From Variovorax dokdonensis (GTDB lineage Bacteria; Pseudomonadota; Gammaproteobacteria; Burkholderiales; Burkholderiaceae_C), in contig NZ_JASZYV010000003.1 in NCBI RefSeq assembly GCF_030316895.1, positions 620,001 to 684,000 on the forward strand: a stretch of DNA of 64,000 bases, read 5' to 3'. Shown here in pieces: positions 10,432-24,459 of this stretch. The notes under the pieces were generated by a model. That model searched no databases. It was not told the origin of the DNA and saw only the letters and a program-made list of their open reading frames with translations. The translations under genes and the position numbers were made by a program. Every line of letters begins with the position of its first letter. The stretch's first letter is position 1.

Positions 10432-12042
10432 CTACCGTGGCGCCGGATGCGCCTCCATCCATCGTTCGATCTGACCGCAGGCTTCGCGGGGCAGGCTCAG
10501 GCCCAGCTTGGAGCGGCGCCACAGCACGTCCTGGCCGCTCACCGCCCATTCTTCATCTTGCAGATAGCGCAGTTCGCGCTCGTAGACGCCGGGCGCCACT
10601 TGCTCACCCAGGTCCTGCAGCGACTGCGCGTCGCCCAGCACCCGCTCGATGCGCGCACCATAGGCCCGCGCCAGGCGCCGCGCCAGCGCTTCGCCCAGCC
10701 ACGGGTGGCGCGCGTGCAGCGCTTCGACGAAACGGTCGAAGTCGGTATCGGGCCGATCGGCGGCGCCGATCCAGCCGGACAGGTCGCCCCCGGCCAGGAA
10801 AGCGCCTTCGGTCCAGGCCGGGCGCGCTTCGCCGAGCATGCGACCCACCTCGTCGGCCGCATCCTCGGCCAGCTTGCGGAAGGTGGTGATCTTGCCGCCC
10901 CACACCGACAGCAGCGGGGCACCGTCGCGCTGGCTTTCGAGCATGTAGTCGCGCGTGACGGCGGATGGGTCGCCCGACGCATCGTCGAGCAAGGGGCGCA
11001 CGCCCGAATAGGTCCACACCACGTCCTCGGGCCGGATGGGCTTTTCGAAGTAGCGGCTGGCCTGCGTGCACAGGTATTGCACTTCCTCTTCGGCGATGCG
11101 CGCCGCGCCCGGGTCGTCGCCTTCCAGCTCGATGTCGGTGGTGCCGATCAGGGTGAACTTTTCCTGGTACGGAATGGCAAAGATGATTCGCTTGTCCGGG
11201 TTCTGGAAGATGTAGGCGTGGTCATGCTCGAACACGCGCGGCACGACGATGTGGCTGCCCTTGACGAGCCGAAGGCTGCGCGTCGCCAGCGTCTCGGCCG
11301 CCGACGGGCGCGCGACCTGGCGCAGGAACGACTCGGCCCACGGCCCCGCGGCATTGACCAGCGCGCGGGCGCGCACCGCCTGGCGCACGCCGTCCGGTCC
11401 TTCGAGCACTGCGCTCCAGCCCTGCGCGTCGCGCCGCGCCTCCACGCAGCGCGTGCGCGTGAGCACCTGCGCACCGCGCTCGCGTGCGTCGATGGCATTG
11501 AGCACCACCAGGCGCGCATCGTCCACCCAGCCATCCGAATAGACGAAACCCCGCCGGTACTGCCCCTTGAGCGGCACGCCCGCTTCATGCGCACGCAGGT
11601 CGATGCCGCGCGAACCCGGCAGCACCTCGCGCCGGGCCAGGTGGTCGTACATGAACAGGCCGATGCGGATCATCCAGGCCGGCCGCATGGCCGGGTCGTG
11701 CGGCATGACGAAGCGCAGCGGCCACATGATGTGCGGGGCGCTCTTGAGCAGCACCTCGCGCTCCTGCAACGCCTTGCGCACCAGCGAGAACTCGTAGTAC
11801 TCCAGATAGCGCAGCCCGCCGTGGATCAGCTTGGTGGACGACGAGGACGTGTGCGACGCCAGATCGTCCTTCTCGGCCAACAGCACCCGCCAGCCGCGCC
11901 CGGCCAGGTCGCGAGCGATGCCGCAGCCGTTGATGCCACCGCCCACCACCAGCACGTCCACCTCCTGCACTGCCGAGGATTGCGGCACCTGCGAGGCGGG
12001 CGAAGGGTTCGAAGAAATGGTCGTTATGGGAACTGCGCTCAT
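10432..12042 (-). CDS. glpD: Aerobic glycerol-3-phosphate dehydrogenase
   Basis: A 536-residue FAD-dependent enzyme that oxidises sn-glycerol-3-phosphate to dihydroxyacetone phosphate and passes electrons to the quinone pool at the inner membrane. The FAD-binding Rossmann motif is VLVVGGGINGCGIARDL (about residues 30-46), followed by the family block SSSSTKLIHGGLRYLE. Other conserved segments are GLFMYDHLARR, RGFVYSDGWVDDARLV, FTLIGTTDIE and VWTYSGVRPL. The first ~25 residues (MSAVPITTISSNPSPASQ) are a low-complexity extension. It is the first gene of the minus-strand glycerol operon, 187 nt from the divergent repressor gene glpR, whose operators probably lie between them. Confidence 0.95.
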   Translation of the reverse strand: MSAVPITTISSNPSPASQVPQSSAVQEVDVLVVGGGINGCGIARDLAGRGWRVLLAEKDDLASHTSSSSTKLIHGGLRYLEYYEFSLVRKALQEREVLLKSAPHIMWPLRFVMPHDPAMRPAWMIRIGLFMYDHLARREVLPGSRGIDLRAHEAGVPLKGQYRRGFVYSDGWVDDARLVVLNAIDARERGAQVLTRTRCVEARRDAQGWSAVLEGPDGVRQAVRARALVNAAGPWAESFLRQVARPSAAETLATRSLRLVKGSHIVVPRVFEHDHAYIFQNPDKRIIFAIPYQEKFTLIGTTDIELEGDDPGAARIAEEEVQYLCTQASRYFEKPIRPEDVVWTYSGVRPLLDDASGDPSAVTRDYMLESQRDGAPLLSVWGGKITTFRKLAEDAADEVGRMLGEARPAWTEGAFLAGGDLSGWIGAADRPDTDFDRFVEALHARHPWLGEALARRLARAYGARIERVLGDAQSLQDLGEQVAPGVYERELRYLQDEEWAVSGQDVLWRRSKLGLSLPREACGQIERWMEAHPAPR

Positions 12043-16130: not shown

Positions 16131-16151
16131 AAATAAGAATTCCTCTCATAT
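16131..16151. promoter_or_regulatory. Candidate Fur box upstream of the haem operon
   Basis: The segment 16132-16148 is an imperfect inverted repeat whose arms ATAAGAAT and TCTCAT match the classic ATGAGAAT-N-ATTCTCAT Fur core at 13 of 16 defined positions. It lies about 105 nt before the receptor start in an AT-rich patch, as expected for an iron-repressed haem uptake operon. Confidence 0.6.
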
Positions 16152-16255: not shown

Positions 16256-18475
16256 GTGACCCTTTCCCGACCTTGCTTGCCGGAGTTCCGGCTTCGACTC
16301 CTAGCTGGCCTCATCGGCAGCGTCTTTGCCACCGGCGCCGTTGCGCAGGAAAGCGTCCGCACGGCCGCGCTCGACACCATCGTGGTCAGCGGCTCGCGCT
16401 CCGAGCAGAAGCGCGACGACGTGCCCGCCAGCATGGAAGTGCTCGACCGCGAGACGATGGAAGCAGAGCAGGTCAACGACATCCGCGATGCGGTGCGCGA
16501 CATGCCCAACGTTTCGGTCAAGCGCGCGCCTGCCCGCTTCGGCCTGGCCGCCGGCAACACCGGGCGGGACGGCAACGCGGGCTTCAACATCCGCGGCCTG
16601 GACGGCAACCGGGTGCTGCTGCTCACCGACGGCATTCGCACGCCGCGCAGCTATGTGTTCTCGGCCAACGCCTTCGGCCGCGACTACTTCGACATCGGCC
16701 TGATCGAGCGCATCGAGGTGCTCAAGGGCCCGGCCTCGGCGCTGTATGGCTCGGATGGCATGGCCGGCCTGGTCAACCTCATCACGCGTGAGCCGCAGTC
16801 CTTCCTGCAAGGCGACACCACCTTCGGCGGCAGCGCCAGCGTCGGCTACAGCGGCGAGGACGACGGCTGGCACACCGGACTGTCCTTGGCAGGCAAGGCT
16901 TCGGACACGGTGCAGTGGCTGCTTTCCGCCAGCGGCAGCAAGACCGAGGGGCTGAAGAACATGGGCACCAACGATTCGGCCAACAGCGATCGCACCACGC
17001 CCAACCCGCAGGACGACACCAACCGGGCCCTGCTGGCCAAGGTGATCCTGACGCCGACAGCCGACCAGCGCCACGCCCTGACCTACGAGCACATCGACAA
17101 GACCTCCGACTACGACATGCTCAGCGGGCGTTCGAAGCCGCCCTACACCTCCACATCGGTGATTGACTTGCAGTCGGAGACGACGATGAAGCGCGACCGC
17201 TTCACCTACGATGGCCGCATCAAGGTCGACAGCGCCATGGCCGATTCGATCCAGGCGGTGCTGAGCTACCAGAAGGCCGGTTCGAACGAATACGCCTACG
17301 AGAACCGCTACACCGCCGCCGACCGCGTGCGCGACGTCGACTACGACGAGGACACCTGGCAAGCCATATTGCAGGCCAACAAGGTGGTGCGCGTGAGCCC
17401 GGACTGGGCGCACAGCCTCACCTACGGCTTCGACTTCACGCGCACCGACGTGACCAACCTGCAGACCGGCCTGGTCCCGCCCGCCGGCGAGACTTATCCG
17501 CTCAAACGCTTCCCGGACACGCGCGAAACAAGCTCGGCCTTCTACATCCAGGACGAGATCATCCACGACCGCTGGAGCATCACCCCCGGGCTGCGTTTCG
17601 ACCAGTACGACATCGATGCCGACCAGACCGGCTTCAACGCCACCGCGGCATCGACCTCGGGATCGGCCGTTTCGCCCAAGCTGGGTGTGCTGTTCCGCGC
17701 CACGCCTTCCTACAGCCTCTACGGCAATTACGCCACCGGCTTCAAGGCGCCCAACGCCTTCCAGGTGAACAACTTCTTCGAGAACGTCCAGGCCGGCTAC
17801 AAGACCATCCCCAACCCGGACCTCAAGCCCGAGAAGAGCCAGAACTTCGAGATCGGCGTTCGTGGACGAACCGGCATCGTCAACTTCGACGTGGCCGCCT
17901 TCACCGGCAACTACAAGGACCTGATCGAGGAAAACCGCCTGGTGGGCGGACGCGGCATTCCGCGCATCGATCCGCTCGTGTTCCAGTCGGTCAACATCGG
18001 CGAGGCACGCATCAGCGGCTTCGAGTTCAAGGGCGATGTGGACTTCACCGAGCAGGGCCGAGGCTTCTCCGTGCCCTTCGCCTACGGCCACACCGAGGGC
18101 ACCAACAAGACCGACGACCGCCCGCTCAACTCGGTCGATCCCGACAAGGGCAGCGTGGGCCTGAAATACAACGCCGGCGCCTGGAGCGCCCGCCTCGACG
18201 TCGTCTACTACGCCGGCAAGAAGCGCGGCGATGTCGACCCGAGCGAAGTGACCACCGGCCAGCAGTTCCTGCCGCCTTCGGCCACCACGCTGGACATCAG
18301 CGCCCAATGGCGCATCAATCCCAGGTTGCGACTGAACGTGGGCATCGTGAACGTCACCGACAAGAAATACTGGCGCTGGTCCGACGTGCGCGGCCTGGCC
18401 AGCAACTCGACGGTGCTGGACGCCTACAGCCAGCCCGGCCGCACTTTCAACGCGACCCTGGTCGCAGACTTCTGA
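16256..18475 (+). CDS. hmuR: TonB-dependent haem/haemoglobin receptor
   Basis: A 739-residue outer-membrane receptor. The likely start is the GTG at 16256, giving a leader that ends GAVAQ-ES near residue 31. The plug domain begins with the TonB-box-like LDTIVVSGSR and continues through FNIRGLDGNRVLLLTDGIR and IERIEVLKGPASALYGSDG. In the barrel, the haem-receptor FRAP/NPNL region is visible as YATGFKAPNAFQ and then NPDLKPEKSQNFEIG. The protein ends with a C-terminal Phe (LVADF), the usual BAM signal. The candidate Fur box lies upstream, and hmuS, a VOC gene and hmuTUV follow. Haem is the likely ligand from context. No tonB/exbBD is in the window. Confidence 0.9.
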   Translation: MTLSRPCLPEFRLRLLAGLIGSVFATGAVAQESVRTAALDTIVVSGSRSEQKRDDVPASMEVLDRETMEAEQVNDIRDAVRDMPNVSVKRAPARFGLAAGNTGRDGNAGFNIRGLDGNRVLLLTDGIRTPRSYVFSANAFGRDYFDIGLIERIEVLKGPASALYGSDGMAGLVNLITREPQSFLQGDTTFGGSASVGYSGEDDGWHTGLSLAGKASDTVQWLLSASGSKTEGLKNMGTNDSANSDRTTPNPQDDTNRALLAKVILTPTADQRHALTYEHIDKTSDYDMLSGRSKPPYTSTSVIDLQSETTMKRDRFTYDGRIKVDSAMADSIQAVLSYQKAGSNEYAYENRYTAADRVRDVDYDEDTWQAILQANKVVRVSPDWAHSLTYGFDFTRTDVTNLQTGLVPPAGETYPLKRFPDTRETSSAFYIQDEIIHDRWSITPGLRFDQYDIDADQTGFNATAASTSGSAVSPKLGVLFRATPSYSLYGNYATGFKAPNAFQVNNFFENVQAGYKTIPNPDLKPEKSQNFEIGVRGRTGIVNFDVAAFTGNYKDLIEENRLVGGRGIPRIDPLVFQSVNIGEARISGFEFKGDVDFTEQGRGFSVPFAYGHTEGTNKTDDRPLNSVDPDKGSVGLKYNAGAWSARLDVVYYAGKKRGDVDPSEVTTGQQFLPPSATTLDISAQWRINPRLRLNVGIVNVTDKKYWRWSDVRGLASNSTVLDAYSQPGRTFNATLVADF

Positions 18476-18487
18476 TTCGAGCCAACC

Positions 18488-19543
18488 ATGAACACATCGA
18501 CCCACGATCTGCTGGACCGCTTCGCCCAGACGCGCGAAGCGGGCAAGCGCCACAAGGACGCCGCCAAGGCCATCGGCATCAGCGAAGGCCAGGCCATTGC
18601 GTTGCACGCGGGCACGAGTGGCCGAGCCATCCAGGCAACGCCGCTGCGCGGCCCCTGGCTGGAACTTCTGCAAGGCCTGGAGGCCTGCGGCCCGGTGCTC
18701 GCCCTGACCCGCAACGAAAGCACGGTGCACGAGAAGACGGGGACGTATCGCAACCTTTCGGGCAGCGGGCACGTCGCGCTGGCGCTGGGCGAAGAGATCG
18801 ACCTGCGCCTGTTCTTCAACCATTGGCATGCCGGCTTCGCGGTCAGCGAGGGTGCGAGCCAGAGCCTGCAGTTCTTCGACAAGTCCGGCGTGGCCGTGCA
18901 CAAGGTGTTCGCACGCGACGCGACGGACAGGGCTGCCTTCCAGGCGCTGATCGACAAGCATGCCGATCATGGCCAGGTGGTGGCATTCGTGGCGTCCGAG
19001 TCCAAGCCGCAACCGCGCCCCGACGGCGCCATCGATGCCAGCGCCCTGTCGGGCGCGTGGGCCGAGATGAAGGACACGCACGAATTCTTCAGCCTGCTGA
19101 AGAAGTTCGACGTCGAGCGCCAGCAGAGCTTTCGCCTGACCGAAGGCGCCTTCACCCATCGAGCGGCCAAGAGCACGTTGCGCGACCTGCTGCACGAAGC
19201 CGCATTCGACGGTACGCCCATCATGGTCTTCGTCGGCAGCCCCGGTTGCATCCAGATCCACAGCGGGCCGGTGCAGCGCATCGAGCCGATGGAGATGCAT
19301 GGCATGCGGTGGCTCAACGTGCTCGACCCGGGATTCAACCTGCATCTGCGCGAAGACCTTGTCGAATCGGTCTGGGTCGTGCGCAAACCGACCAGCGATG
19401 GCGTGGTCACCTCGGTCGAGGCCTTCGACGTCGACGGCACCCTCATGGCCATGTTCTTCGGCGTGCGCAAGCCCGGCAAGCCGGAGCTGGACGCCTGGCG
19501 CGCCATCGTCGAGAAGGTTGCACCGCAAGGGGCCGCGGCATGA
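18488..19543 (+). CDS. hmuS: Haemin-degrading/trafficking factor HmuS
   Basis: A 351-residue cytoplasmic protein with the two-repeat HemS/ChuX architecture. The first repeat includes VLALTRNESTVHEKTG and GSGHVALALGEEIDLRLF. The second includes RAAKSTLRDLLHEAAFDGTPI, IQIHSGPVQRI and WLNVLDPGFNLHLREDLV followed by SVWVVRKP. HemS-family proteins bind incoming haem and release its iron or pass it on. It lies 12 nt after the receptor gene and overlaps the VOC gene by 4 nt. Confidence 0.92.
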   Translation: MNTSTHDLLDRFAQTREAGKRHKDAAKAIGISEGQAIALHAGTSGRAIQATPLRGPWLELLQGLEACGPVLALTRNESTVHEKTGTYRNLSGSGHVALALGEEIDLRLFFNHWHAGFAVSEGASQSLQFFDKSGVAVHKVFARDATDRAAFQALIDKHADHGQVVAFVASESKPQPRPDGAIDASALSGAWAEMKDTHEFFSLLKKFDVERQQSFRLTEGAFTHRAAKSTLRDLLHEAAFDGTPIMVFVGSPGCIQIHSGPVQRIEPMEMHGMRWLNVLDPGFNLHLREDLVESVWVVRKPTSDGVVTSVEAFDVDGTLMAMFFGVRKPGKPELDAWRAIVEKVAPQGAAA

Positions 19544-19926
19544 CGTTGAAAAGCATCGAGCTCAAGGCCTTCGTGCCTGCGCAGGACTTCGAGCTGTCCA
19601 AGCGCTTCTATCGCGAAATCGGCTTCACCATGGCGTCGGAGGGTGGCGGCATTGCCTACTTCCACCACCAGGGCAGCTGCCCTTTCCTGCTGCAAAGCTA
19701 CTACGTGAAGGAGTTTGCCGAGAACCTGCAACTCCACTTGCTGGTGGAGGACGTACAGGCCTGGTGGTCGCATCTGAAGGCCATCGACATCACCGGACGC
19801 TACGGCGTTCGCATGACGGACCCCGTCGAGCAGCCCTGGGTCATGATCGACTTCAGCTTGACCGACCCGTGCGGCGTCTGCTGGCGCATCGGGCAGAACA
19901 TCCCGCGCAAGGACGCAACGCCATGA
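19540..19926 (+). CDS. VOC-fold (glyoxalase/bleomycin-resistance-like) protein inside the haem operon
   Basis: A 128-residue small protein with the beta-alpha-beta-beta-beta pattern of the vicinal oxygen chelate superfamily: KAFVPAQDFELSKRFYREIGF, HHQGSCPFLLQSYY, LQLHLLVEDVQAWWSHLKAI and MIDFSLTDPCGVCWRIGQN. Candidate metal ligands (several His and acidic residues, and Cys in DPCGVCW) are present, but the canonical H/E set is not clear to me. It overlaps hmuS upstream and hmuT downstream by 4 nt each, so it is built into the haem operon, which is not standard for hmu loci. Function is unknown; a role with haem, its breakdown products or a metallophore is inference from position. Confidence 0.8.
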   Translation: MTLKSIELKAFVPAQDFELSKRFYREIGFTMASEGGGIAYFHHQGSCPFLLQSYYVKEFAENLQLHLLVEDVQAWWSHLKAIDITGRYGVRMTDPVEQPWVMIDFSLTDPCGVCWRIGQNIPRKDATP

Positions 19927-20816
19927 GCCCGACCCCCAACCTGGCGAAGTCTGCCGGTCGGCGAACCGTGTTGCGCATGATCGCGGCCGCCGCAGCCGGC
20001 GCGCTGGCGCTGCCTGCCACGCGCGCCGCCAGCCGACCCGAGGCCCGCATCATCACCATCAGCGGCGCCGTCACCGAAGTGGCGTACGCGCTCGGCGCGG
20101 AGGGGCAAGTGGTGGGCACCGATACCACCAGCATCTTCCCGGCTGCGGCCCTCAAGACGCCCAAGGTGGGCTACATGCGCCAGTTGTCGGCCGAGGGCCT
20201 TCTGTCGCTGCGCCCCAATGCCGTCATCGCGACCACCGAGGCCGGTCCGCCTGTGGTCCTCGATCAGTTGCGCAGCGCCGGCGTCAAGCTCGAACTGATC
20301 GAAGCCGATCACACCTGGGGCGAAGTCCAGCGCAAGGTGCATGCGGTGGGCCGCGCCGCCGGACGCGAGACGCAAGCCGCCGATCTGCAGCGCAATCTCG
20401 ATGCGCGATGGGCCGAGGTCCAATCCCGCGTGGCCTCGGCCAGCGGAAGGCGCAAGCCGCGCGTGCTGTTCGTTCTTTCGCACAGCGCGAGTCCGCAGGT
20501 TTCCGGCGAGAAGACCGCCGCCAACGCGGTGATCGGCTTCGCCGGCGGCGTCAATTGCCTGTCGGGCTTCCAGGGCTACCGACCGATGACGGCAGAGGCC
20601 ATGGCCAGCGCTGCGCCCGACGTGATCCTGACCAGCACGCAGAGCATCGAGGCACATGGTGGCGCAGACCGCTTCTGGCAGCGTCCCGAACTTGCGTTGA
20701 CGCCCGCCTTTGCCAGGCGCGCGCTCATCACGCAGGACGCGCTGCTTCTGCTCGGATTCGGCCCGCGCCTGCCGCAGGCCGTCGACGAACTGCACCGGCA
20801 GCTTCAGGCGCTATGA
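19923..20816 (+). CDS. hmuT: Haemin ABC transporter periplasmic binding protein HmuT
   Basis: A 297-residue cluster-A binding protein. The start at 19923 overlaps the VOC stop; the leader has GRRTVLRMI followed by an Ala-rich hydrophobic stretch to TRAAS, possibly Tat-type. The body shows ITISGAVTEVAYALG, VVGTDTTSIFPAAALKTPKVGYMRQLSAEGLLSL in pieces and RPNAVIATTEAGPP, the usual pattern of HmuT/ShuT. It should hand haem to HmuU. It overlaps hmuU by 4 nt. Confidence 0.92.
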   Translation: MSPTPNLAKSAGRRTVLRMIAAAAAGALALPATRAASRPEARIITISGAVTEVAYALGAEGQVVGTDTTSIFPAAALKTPKVGYMRQLSAEGLLSLRPNAVIATTEAGPPVVLDQLRSAGVKLELIEADHTWGEVQRKVHAVGRAAGRETQAADLQRNLDARWAEVQSRVASASGRRKPRVLFVLSHSASPQVSGEKTAANAVIGFAGGVNCLSGFQGYRPMTAEAMASAAPDVILTSTQSIEAHGGADRFWQRPELALTPAFARRALITQDALLLLGFGPRLPQAVDELHRQLQAL

Positions 20817-21868
20817 GCCTGGCCATGGAAACGCGGCACCGTCTGCCGACGCGCACGGTGCTGGTCGCCGGCGGCGCCCTGCTGCTCGTGGCGTTTGCAG
20901 TCGCCGCGTCGAGCGGCGCCTACGCCATCAGCACCGGACAACTCTGGGGCGTGCTGCGCGATGCGTGGCAAGGCGTGGCGTCGCCCTCGCCGGAACATCT
21001 GGTCTTCATGAACATCCGGCTGCCGCGCCTTCTGCTGGGCGTGGCCGCCGGCTGCGGGCTCGGCATGGCCGGCGCATTGATGCAGGGGCTGTTTCGCAAC
21101 CCGCTGGCCGACCCGGGGCTGATCGGCATCAGCAGCGGCGCTGCATTGGCGGCCGGCATCACCATCGTCATGGGCGCCTGGTTGTGGCCGGTGCTGCCGC
21201 GCACGCTGGGCAGCTGGACGCTGGTGGCCACCGCCTTCTGCGGCGGCTTCGCCGTCACCTTTCTGATCTACGTGCTCTCGCGCAGCGAAGGCGGCACGCG
21301 CATGGCGCTGATGCTGCTGGCCGGCATCGCCGTCAATGCGCTGGCCGGCGCCGGCCTGGGGCTGCTGAGCGTGCTGGCCACCGACGAACAGTTGCGCAGC
21401 CTGCAGTTCTGGTTGCTCGGAAGCCTGGGCGGCGCGCGTTGGAGCGCCGTGATGCTGGTCGGCGTGGTCGTGGCGCTGGCCTGCGCTGTCGCACTCACGC
21501 TGGCGCCAGCGCTCAACGCGATGGCGCTGGGCGAGCCGCAGGCGCGCCTGCTCGGCATCGACGTCGAGCGCGTCAAGCGTCGTGCCATCGTGGTCACAGC
21601 CTTCGCGGTCGGCGCCGTCACGGCCACGACGGGCGTCATCGGATTCATCGGCCTGATCGCGCCGCACTGGGTGCGCATGGTGGCGGGGCCAGACCACCGC
21701 ATCGTGCTGCCCGCCTCCGGCCTGCTGGGCGCTGCACTGGTGCTGGCGGCCGACACCGTGGCGCGCACCATCCTCGCGCCGGCCGAGCTACCTCTGGGCG
21801 TGCTCACCGCTTTCATCGGCGTGCCCATGTTCCTGCTGATGCTGCGCCACTACCGCAACCGCCTATGA
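20813..21868 (+). CDS. hmuU: Haemin ABC transporter permease HmuU
   Basis: A 351-residue FecCD-family permease rich in hydrophobic helices. Family landmarks are NIRLPRLLLGVAAGCGLGMAG, LMQGLFRNPLADPGLIGIS, LLLAGIAVNALAGAG, LGSLGGARW and GFIGLIAPHWVRMVAGPDHR, the last near the ATPase-contact loop. It should act as a homodimer with HmuV. It overlaps both hmuT and hmuV by 4 nt (ATGA). Confidence 0.95.
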   Translation: MSLAMETRHRLPTRTVLVAGGALLLVAFAVAASSGAYAISTGQLWGVLRDAWQGVASPSPEHLVFMNIRLPRLLLGVAAGCGLGMAGALMQGLFRNPLADPGLIGISSGAALAAGITIVMGAWLWPVLPRTLGSWTLVATAFCGGFAVTFLIYVLSRSEGGTRMALMLLAGIAVNALAGAGLGLLSVLATDEQLRSLQFWLLGSLGGARWSAVMLVGVVVALACAVALTLAPALNAMALGEPQARLLGIDVERVKRRAIVVTAFAVGAVTATTGVIGFIGLIAPHWVRMVAGPDHRIVLPASGLLGAALVLAADTVARTILAPAELPLGVLTAFIGVPMFLLMLRHYRNRL

Positions 21869-22647
21869 GCATCGCCTGCACCGATGCCGGCCTGTCGGTC
21901 GGCCACAAGACCTTGCTGGAAGGCGTGGACGCCCGGTTCTTGCCGGGGCGCGTTTGCGCCATCCTCGGCCCGAACGGCGCGGGCAAATCGACATTGCTGT
22001 CGTTGCTCTGCGCCCAGCGGCCGCCCACTCGCGGACGCGTGATGCTCGATGACCGAGACATCGGCTCGCATTCGCCGGCAGCGCTGGCGCTGCGACGCGC
22101 GGTGATGCCGCAGGAAAGCAGCGTCGCCTTCGACTTCAACGCCGAGGAGATCGTCGCCCTGGGTCGCCTGCCGCATCGCCTTGCGCCCGAACCGCAAGAG
22201 CATCGCATCGTTCCGGAAGCGATGACGCTCACCGGCGTGGCAGGCCTGGCGCATCGCGTCCTCAACACCCTCTCGGGCGGCGAGAAGGCCCGTGTGCACC
22301 TGGCCCGCGCGCTTGCGCAACTGTGGCACCCCCGCCCGGACGGCACGACGCGCTGGCTGATGCTCGACGAGCCTACCGCTGCGCTGGACGTTGCGCATCA
22401 GCATTCGGTGATGGCGCTAGCTCGGCGATGGGCCGGGCAAGGCGTCGGCGTGGTCGCCGTGCTGCACGACCTGAACCTGGCGCTGCGCTATGCCGACGAA
22501 GTGATCGTGCTCAGCCAGGGCCGCAAGGTGGCGCAGGGCGAGACCGCGCAGGTGCTGCAGCCCGCATTGGTCAGCGAGATCTGGCGGACCCCCTGCGAGC
22601 TGGTCAGCGGTCGGGACGGCGCGCCGCAGTTTCTTTTCGGCGGCTGA
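21865..22647 (+). CDS. hmuV: Haemin ABC transporter ATPase HmuV
   Basis: A 260-residue ATPase with Walker A GPNGAGKST (about residues 34-42), signature LSGGEKARVHLARAL, Walker B WLMLDEPTAALD and switch histidine in AVLHDLNLAL. Length and the HmuV-specific segment VMPQESSVAFDFNAEEIVALGRLPH in pieces support haem specificity. It is the last gene of the haem unit; kdpA starts 99 nt downstream with its own regulatory repeats. Confidence 0.94.
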   Translation: MSIACTDAGLSVGHKTLLEGVDARFLPGRVCAILGPNGAGKSTLLSLLCAQRPPTRGRVMLDDRDIGSHSPAALALRRAVMPQESSVAFDFNAEEIVALGRLPHRLAPEPQEHRIVPEAMTLTGVAGLAHRVLNTLSGGEKARVHLARALAQLWHPRPDGTTRWLMLDEPTAALDVAHQHSVMALARRWAGQGVGVVAVLHDLNLALRYADEVIVLSQGRKVAQGETAQVLQPALVSEIWRTPCELVSGRDGAPQFLFGG

Positions 22648-22746: not shown

Positions 22747-24459
22747 ATGACCGAAACCATCCTCGTCTTCGCCCTGGCCCTGCTTCTAGGCTGGCCATTG
22801 GGCAACTACCTCGCGGCCGTGATGCGCGGCGCGCCAATGCGCGGCGACGCGTTCTTCCGTTACATCGAGCAGCCCATCTACCGGCTGCTGGGCACGAAGC
22901 CCGAACACGGCATGGACTGGAAGGGCTACGCCCTTGCCTTCCTGGCCAGCAACCTGGTGCTGGCCATTCTGGTCTGGCTCATCTTCATGACGCAGGCCTG
23001 GTTGCCGCTCAACCCCAACGACGCGCCCAACATGCGCTGGGATCTGGCGCTGCACACCATGGTGTCGTTCCTGACGAACACCAACCAGCAGCACTATTCC
23101 GGCCAGGCCCAGCTGTCCTACCTGGCGCAGATGACCGGCATCGTCGGCCTGCAAGTGGTGACGCCCATGATGGGGCTGGCCATCGTCGCCGCGACGCTGC
23201 GCGGCATCTTCGGCGGGCGCAACGCCAGCCGTTCGACGGGCGCCAATACCCCGACATCCGGCCAGGTCTACGTGGGCAACTACTGGGCCGACGTGATCCG
23301 CCCCACCGTGCGCTTCATGCTGCCGCTGTGCCTCGTGTTCTCCCTGGCGCTCACACAGCAGGGTGTTCCGGCCACGCTGCTTGGCGGACCGGTGGTCGCG
23401 CCGGTGGATTCGAGCGTGCAAATGAAGGAGCAGAAGATCCCGCTCGGCCCGGTGGCGCCCATGGTGGCCATCAAGCAACTCGGCACCAACGGCGGCGGCT
23501 GGTACGGCCCCAACAGTGCGGCGCCGCTGGAGAATCCGACGCCTTTGACCAACCTGCTGGAAACGCTGGCCATCATCCTGGTGCCGGTGGCCGTGGCCTT
23601 CATGGTCGGGCCTTTTACCGGCCGACGTCGCTTCGCCGCGCTGGTGGTGGGCTGCATGCTGCTGATGTCGGTGGCGTCGAGCGGCCTCGCCATCTGGTCC
23701 GAAGGCCACTCCGTCACCTCGGCCGACATCGCGCTGATGGAAGGCAAGGAAGTGCGCCTGGGCGCGGATGCGTCGGCCTTGTGGGCTTCGCTGACCACGC
23801 AGACTTCCAACGGCTCGGTCAACGCCATGCACGACTCGCTCGCGCCGCTGACCGGCCTCGTCACGATCAGCGACATGCTGGTCAATGCCGTGTGGGGCGG
23901 CATCGGCTGCGGACTGCAGCAGTTCCTGGTCTACCTGATGCTGAGCGTGTTCATCGCCGGCCTCATGACCGGACGCACGCCCGAACTCTTCGGCCGCAAG
24001 ATCGAGGCGTCCGAGGTGCGCCTGCTGGCCGTGCTGGTGCTGCTGCAGCCGCTCGTGCTGCTCGGCCTGACGGCGCTCACGCTGTCGTGGCCCGGATTGG
24101 CGGGCACGTCGAACCCGGGCTTCCATGGCATCAGCCAGGTCTTCTATGAGTTCACCTCGGCCTTCGCCAACAACGGCTCGGGCTTCGAAGGCCTGGGCGA
24201 CGCCACCTACTGGTGGAACCTGAGCTGCGCGGTCGTGCTGGCGCTGGGCCGCTACCCCGCACTGATCATCCCGCTGGCCATCGCCGCGATGCTCGCCAGC
24301 AAGCGCCGTGCGCCCGAAGGCGCTGGCAGCCTGCAGATCGAGACGCCGACCTTCGCACTCACCTTGATCGCCGTGATCGTGATCCTCACGCTGCTGCAGT
24401 TCATGCCCGTGCTCGTGCTGGGCCCGGTGGCCGACCACCTGTCGCTGGCCGTGCGATGA
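22747..24459 (+). CDS. kdpA: K+-transporting ATPase subunit A
   Basis: A 570-residue membrane subunit that binds and conducts K+. The four pore-loop filter regions can be read as [37 protein letters not shown] and [10 protein letters not shown], each with the conserved Gly. The start at 22747 gives [23 protein letters not shown], the usual N-terminal helix. No kdpF is seen in the 99 nt upstream. The stop overlaps the kdpB ATG by 4 nt. Confidence 0.96.

Follow-up and report, generated by a model that had tools for sequence, protein, structure and literature searches.

What does a small VOC-type gene do in the middle of a haem-uptake operon? The window analyzed here, a 64-kb stretch of the Variovorax dokdonensis genome, contains a complete hmuRSTUV set, that is, a haem receptor, a HemS protein and a haem ABC transporter in one operon, as judged by matches above cut-off to TIGR01786 and NF010068 and by matches to PF05171, PF01497 and PF01032. 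All of its genes lie on the plus strand. The first, hmuR (16256..18475, GTG start as called), encodes a TonB-dependent haem/haemoglobin receptor that scores 412.7 bits against the NCBIfam haemoglobin/transferrin-receptor model TIGR01786 (cut-off 323.75) and also matches Pfam PF00593 and PF07715. After a gap of only 12 nt follows hmuS (18488..19543), for a cytoplasmic haem-binding/degrading protein of the HemS/ChuS type (Pfam domains HemS PF05171, 252 bits, and ChuX_HutX PF06228, 176 bits). The transporter is encoded by hmuT (19923..20816; periplasmic haem-binding protein, Peripla_BP_2 PF01497, 110.7 bits), hmuU (20813..21868; permease, FecCD PF01032, 294.8 bits) and hmuV (21865..22647; ATPase, NF010068, 291.7 bits against a cut-off of 261, and ABC_tran). 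Receptor, HmuS and TUV transporter stand in the same order as in the hmuRSTUV, bhuRSTUV and chuPRSTUV operons, from which the window differs by one extra gene: between hmuS and hmuT lies VOC1 (19540..19926), whose 128-aa product resembles bleomycin-resistance proteins. About 100 nt past hmuV, an ORF on the same strand (window 22747-24459) appears kdpA-like by eye.

A sequence-only reading of this locus had described ATGA overlaps on both sides of the VOC gene, within a run of consecutive genes from hmuS to hmuV that each overlap by 4 nt, and the coordinates confirm both: each of the four junctions (hmuS, VOC1, hmuT, hmuU, hmuV) is a 4-nt ATGA, that of hmuS and VOC1 lying at 19540..19543 on the plus strand. 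From this tight coupling it had argued for a role in haem handling. Such overlaps are common in bacterial operons, and an ATGA overlap alone is thus weak evidence of function; the role itself stands mainly on other ground, the repeated recruitment of VOC1 into hmu loci of several families. Across 14 loci with VOC1 in the S-T slot, the VOC1 start overlaps the hmuS stop by 4 nt in every one (ATGA, or GTGA in three), three of them also offering another VOC1 start. The junction with hmuT is variable in these loci, from -4 to about +45, and in one (G171) no start was found. Pairwise dN/dS in 11 S-T-slot loci is 0.08-0.30 for VOC1, 0.11-0.44 for hmuS and 0.05-0.35 for hmuT. VOC1 is under purifying selection within the range of its neighbors, and these values together with the invariant start overlap make its placement more than chance.

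Upstream of the operon, a Fur-box-like site (16132..16149, plus strand) starts 124 nt before hmuR, with three mismatches to an 18-base sequence that we take to be the Fur-box consensus. The pattern matches once in the 64 kb and in none of 100 shuffles, the site having been seen before the pattern was chosen. In 14 of 15 loci of the genus, a comparable site with at most four mismatches starts approximately 120-145 nt ahead of hmuR, the fifteenth (G219) having only a poor one with six mismatches; as a control, among 400 random stretches of 280 nt taken from the retrieved loci, 4 match as well, some of which may be true Fur sites. Five hmu loci with VOC1 from another family (f22) lack a Fur-type site within 250 nt upstream of hmuR (7-9 mismatches). 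In the window, Fur probably controls the whole operon, VOC1 included.

VOC1 is the sole match in its 4.97-Mb source genome at E 0.001, and its distribution among relatives is uneven. Among 100 genomes of the genus, HmuS was matched in 30, or 29 once the weak match in G218 is set aside, and VOC1 in 16, of which 13 were strong (the weak matches in G173, G187 and G172 were left out). Twelve of those 13 are hmu copies (Fisher p=5e-7). Variovorax sp. dw_308 (L042) and KK3 (L043), counted once each as G213 and G219, have the same arrangement as the window. In the family, HmuS occurs in 61 of 299 genomes searched, excluding the window genome and G218, and 49 of these 61 loci, all outside the genus, were examined, one (L112) being without hmuT. 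The sequence-only reading had proposed a survey for absence of the gene from related hmu loci, and the result divides: VOC1 lies between hmuS and hmuT in 12 of the 28 genus loci that have both genes and is missing from 16, and in the rest of the family it occupies this slot in only two loci (G340 and G377), being missing from 47 of 49. A match to VOC1 was found in 23 of 150 genomes of the family, mostly away from hmu outside the genus, and besides the window only one of the 23 (G054) has VOC1 at most about 1.5 kb from a TUV-type transporter. Outside the genus there is no sign that VOC1 and hmuS co-occur in the family, with hmuS in 4 of the 23 VOC1 genomes compared to 63 of 299, among the matches listed.

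Several further features of these loci were recorded. G054 carries, besides its hmu locus, a second and divergent T-VOC1-U-V transporter set (L150:5549-8582), in which a more distant VOC1 lies between the T- and U-like genes. Several genera of the family encode, in the space from hmuR to hmuS, a conserved protein of roughly 110 aa (EEYxLPxxEALLAxTLALMTGxxQxCC...; L172:5835-6176, minus strand; L174:6926-7252; L092:1052-1414; L169:5893-6231), and the one example tested had no Pfam match. G377 and G340 each have an ORF of about 150 aa downstream of their hmu genes, and the two share a Cys-rich C-terminus (CQTGC...CRRTG..C; L169:11149-11595, and the reverse strand of L172 at 11367-11828 in that orientation). 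We also considered VOC1 as a substitute for haem oxygenase. Of the hmu genomes of the genus, PF01126 is present in 7 of the 12 with VOC1 and in 8 of the 16 without it, and with frequencies so similar VOC1 does not simply replace the canonical enzyme. No HmuS column separating VOC-bearing from VOC-free loci passed our filter.

At the level of the order, HmuS was found in 52 of 300 genomes (E 1e-30) and VOC1 in 18 (E 1e-12, searched with a 25-row family alignment). Comparison of coordinates with the HmuS matches and inspection of loci place VOC1 in or beside an hmu locus in 10 of the 18; of the other eight, five have hmuS elsewhere and three have no hmuS at E 1e-30. The positions occupied differ: 1) the S-T slot in G000; 2) the T-U slot in G542, G578, G637, G608 and G415; 3) directly after hmuV and followed by a cupin gene in G419 and G465; 4) after hmuV and a tonB-like gene in G666; and 5) between an hmuY-type gene and hmuS in G447. 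The G415 match spans only model positions 3-108 with no gene called, and was counted in the T-U gap by its coordinates. In the G447 hmu locus, the protein encoded directly upstream of VOC1 has a HmuY domain (PF14064, 50.8 bits; L236:8542-9813). Yet another position is found in a Burkholderia stagnalis record, where a 42% identical VOC1-family gene lies between hmuU and hmuV, just where the legend of a review figure notes a VOC gene between bhuU and bhuV (PMC5681537). The legend makes this a passing note with no function proposed, and the slot differs from the S-T slot of the window. The gene was rightly described as lying outside the textbook hmu set, this legend notwithstanding.

The association with hmuS is strong in the order, with hmuS in 15 of the 18 VOC1 genomes compared to 52 of 300 overall (Fisher p=3e-10), and it holds when the window genome and G548 are omitted (p=7.5e-9); the G548 match (L232) by sequence resembles another VOC family, and counts among the 18 but was excluded from this one repeat test. 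The order-level figure is partly inflated, since two rows of the search alignment A1 (L201 and L206) were found via f22 hmu loci and matches in f22 are consequently not independent. Without the f22 hits and the genus of the window, hmuS is present in 8 of 11 VOC1 genomes (p=1.5e-5), a test in which only f22 genomes with matches were removed, the number of f22 genomes without matches not being known. Three of those 11 (G419, G447 and G465) have VOC1 in hmu loci. The class-level survey was sparse, with VOC1 in 2 and hmuS in 4 of 198 genomes, the window genome included in both.

Phylogenies agree with a history of gain and loss. In a VOC1 tree of 70 rows and 118 columns, in which many forks are unresolved, the division between hmu-linked and other copies needs at least 7 changes if the ChaN and TUV-like rows are ignored, and 9 if they are scored as other, three of these being forced by starred branches. 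Three partial matches were left out of the VOC1 sequence set, and L232, L024 and L026 out of the tree. On a HmuS tree of 43 rows, built by a quick method without L072 and the truncated L063, the presence or absence of VOC1 needs 6 changes, 3 of them forced. VOC1 is an optional, recurrent hmu accessory that comes and goes, and it has been recruited several separate times, at different hmu positions, in several families. A functional link to haem uptake is well supported, mainly by this repeated recruitment at differing positions.

The protein itself narrows what this link may be. VOC1 is a member of the VOC superfamily by its Pfam match to Glyoxalase PF00903 (22.0 bits, cut-off 20.6), against which three of its relatives score 35-44 bits and one falls slightly under the cut-off (20.2). 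The VOC fold is predicted by an AlphaFold2 model based on the 25-row family alignment (pLDDT 94.8, pTM 0.87), and the folds nearest to this model are those of Ble, ZbmA and TnmS. Foldseek lists bleomycin- or zorbamycin-binding proteins in its top ten rows (best E 2e-9). VIA gives these two kinds and tiancimycin-binding proteins in rows 1 to 12, with Z from 15.6 (rmsd 2.3 over 116 residues) down to 13.8. In length, fold and best structural matches, VOC1 is similar to Ble, BLMT, ZbmA and TnmS, which makes binding without catalysis likely; bleomycin-binding VOC proteins are homodimers that bind their ligand without changing it. VOC1 differs from these proteins in its low identity (17-22% to the first 12 VIA rows), in scores far under cut-off against NCBIfam ble models (19.8 vs 140 bits and 17.3 vs 260 bits), and in its location, iron-uptake operons as opposed to antibiotic loci.

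Kinship of fold with drug-binding resistance proteins could mean that VOC1 serves in self-protection, sequestering toxic haem mimics or antibiotics imported via HmuR and HmuTUV. An optional defence gene would suit the patchy presence, with its at least three forced changes on the HmuS tree, and one copy also accompanies a second TUV-like transporter. The coupling in the S-T slot, however, is to hmuS and not to hmuR, and no biosynthetic or resistance gene recurs beside VOC1 in the loci viewed by eye, so that such a role seems decidedly unlikely.

A catalytic role can be examined through individual residues. The presumed metal-ligand positions, assigned by motif comparison, include E7 and Q52, both mostly conserved, and a last position that is R or H in most alignment rows. 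Together with the drug-binding nearest folds, this leaves the metal binding suggested by the sequence-only reading unsupported, if still conceivable. The genomic evidence (hmu positions, recruitment, overlap with hmuS) would apply equally to an enzyme acting on a linear tetrapyrrole or tripyrrole from HmuS, for example a metal-dependent VOC oxygenase that cleaves a ring or bond; many VOC enzymes are oxygenases, and the polar residues E7, K9, Q52 and H66 are largely conserved. The replacement of the presumed last ligand argues against such an enzyme, as does the fold comparison, in which glyoxalase I (1f9z, VIA Z 12.2) ranks below the drug-binding proteins, and we regard it as unlikely. A glyoxalase-like activity removing reactive carbonyls or oxidative by-products of haem breakdown has a parallel in Pseudomonas aeruginosa, where a figure legend places the haem-binding protein PA0709 in one operon with the glyoxalase GloA2 (PMC7857532), a fold match to the VOC1 model at VIA Z 12.4. 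VOC1, however, matches no NCBIfam glyoxalase I model with an E-value of 0.01 or lower, and with the last ligand position apparently lost this activity is highly improbable.

Do hmu-linked copies differ from the rest of the VOC1 family? E7, K9, Q52, Y55, H66 and W100 are largely common to hmu-linked and stand-alone copies. Y55 is found in all 24 hmu-linked rows and in 31 of 45 others, and a search of these 24 and 45 rows for a residue signature peculiar to hmu-linked VOC1 yielded none. Given that no residue marks the hmu-linked proteins, the ligand may belong to a broader class than haem. Neighbors of stand-alone copies offer little guidance: none recurs across families in 24 loci viewed by eye or in six more loci, and recurrences within one genus (e.g. 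Pseudomonas, Caballeronia) resemble inherited synteny. Only one of the 24 stand-alone copies scanned has a Fur-type site. In that genome (G426), VOC1 lies outside hmu and ends 7 nt before chaN (PF04187, haem-binding, 143 bits), and a Fur-box-like site with two mismatches starts 71 nt upstream of the called VOC1 start codon; VOC1 and chaN (L241:6571-7762) possibly form a small Fur-controlled haem operon.

Three genomes have a second, very different VOC-like gene (VOC2) in the T-U slot, its start overlapping hmuT by ATGA: G262 (L170:8425-8880), G132 (L171:6608-7033, minus strand) and G377 (L169:8752-9225), the last of which carries both VOC1 and VOC2. VOC2 is called VOC-like because its PF00903 scores (14.8 and 16.8 bits) are under the cut-off. 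Profile comparison with VOC1 gives a probability of 57 (E 1e-4), and its structure model (pLDDT 37.8) is unusable. These additional iron links bear on whether VOC1 might be a passenger in hmu operons, a general small-molecule binder with no haem-related role. The many stand-alone relatives, the shared pocket-type residues and the absence of a VOC1-hmuS association in the family outside the genus are all in keeping with a passenger. Repeated insertion at several positions, purifying selection, the pairing of chaN with a Fur box in G426 and the occurrence of VOC2 in some hmu operons speak against it, and we give it little credence.

The reading that we prefer, tentatively and at a probability of roughly 0.4, is that VOC1 would form a dimer in the cytoplasm and there bind either haem or the open-chain compound that HmuS produces. 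No signal peptide is visible in VOC1, which is therefore probably cytoplasmic, and binding without catalysis is suggested by its distant fold relatives. Small cytoplasmic partners of haem uptake are familiar in IsdG/ABM, HugZ, HutX and canonical haem oxygenase, the folds of which differ from VOC; VOC1 would resemble these accessory haem-degradation proteins in size and compartment and differ in fold. Haem would enter via HmuR and HmuTUV and be received by HmuS, which would open the ring. VOC1, whose synthesis the conserved 4-nt overlap would keep in step with that of HmuS, would then bind a flat or open-chain pyrrole compound, either haem or the HmuS product, and by doing so would relieve product inhibition or toxicity or hand the compound on. 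Relatives of HmuS open the haem ring in vitro. A small VOC binding protein made together with HmuS fits a holder or carrier of haem or of the open-chain product. According to a 2018 review, ChuS yields a tripyrrole and haematinic acid in vitro and Yersinia HmuS yields biliverdin isomers; it describes the in vitro products as differing among HemS, ChuS and HmuS and the whole-cell proof as missing or partial (PMC6018153).

A broader proposal is that VOC1 and the VOC-like gene between hmuT and hmuU together represent an undescribed step of haem-iron use, which would bind or convert an open-chain pyrrole from HemS/HmuS-type enzymes and has been recruited repeatedly in Burkholderiales; this is possible, with doubt outweighing confidence. 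Neither the hmu operon nor the VOC fold is new, and a VOC gene in the haem operon of one species has been noted in passing. The main text on Chromobacterium violaceum chuPRSTUV describes six genes and contains neither 'glyoxalase' nor 'VOC' (PMC9131926). In a limited literature search, the figure legend on B. stagnalis was the only place found to mention a VOC gene within an operon for haem uptake (PMC5681537), and nothing was found on recurrence across families and positions, on the invariant hmuS overlap or on the link to chaN.

The recurrence of VOC1 suggests an unrecognized helper step in the handling of haem or its breakdown products. The fate of haem and its products past HemS, ChuS and HmuS is unsettled, and VOC1 makes this question testable in harmless strains of Variovorax: a small soluble protein, translationally coupled to hmuS and repeatedly recruited, is a concrete and purifiable candidate for the step after HmuS. 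If this proves true, the bleomycin-resistance fold would gain a physiological role in iron nutrition.
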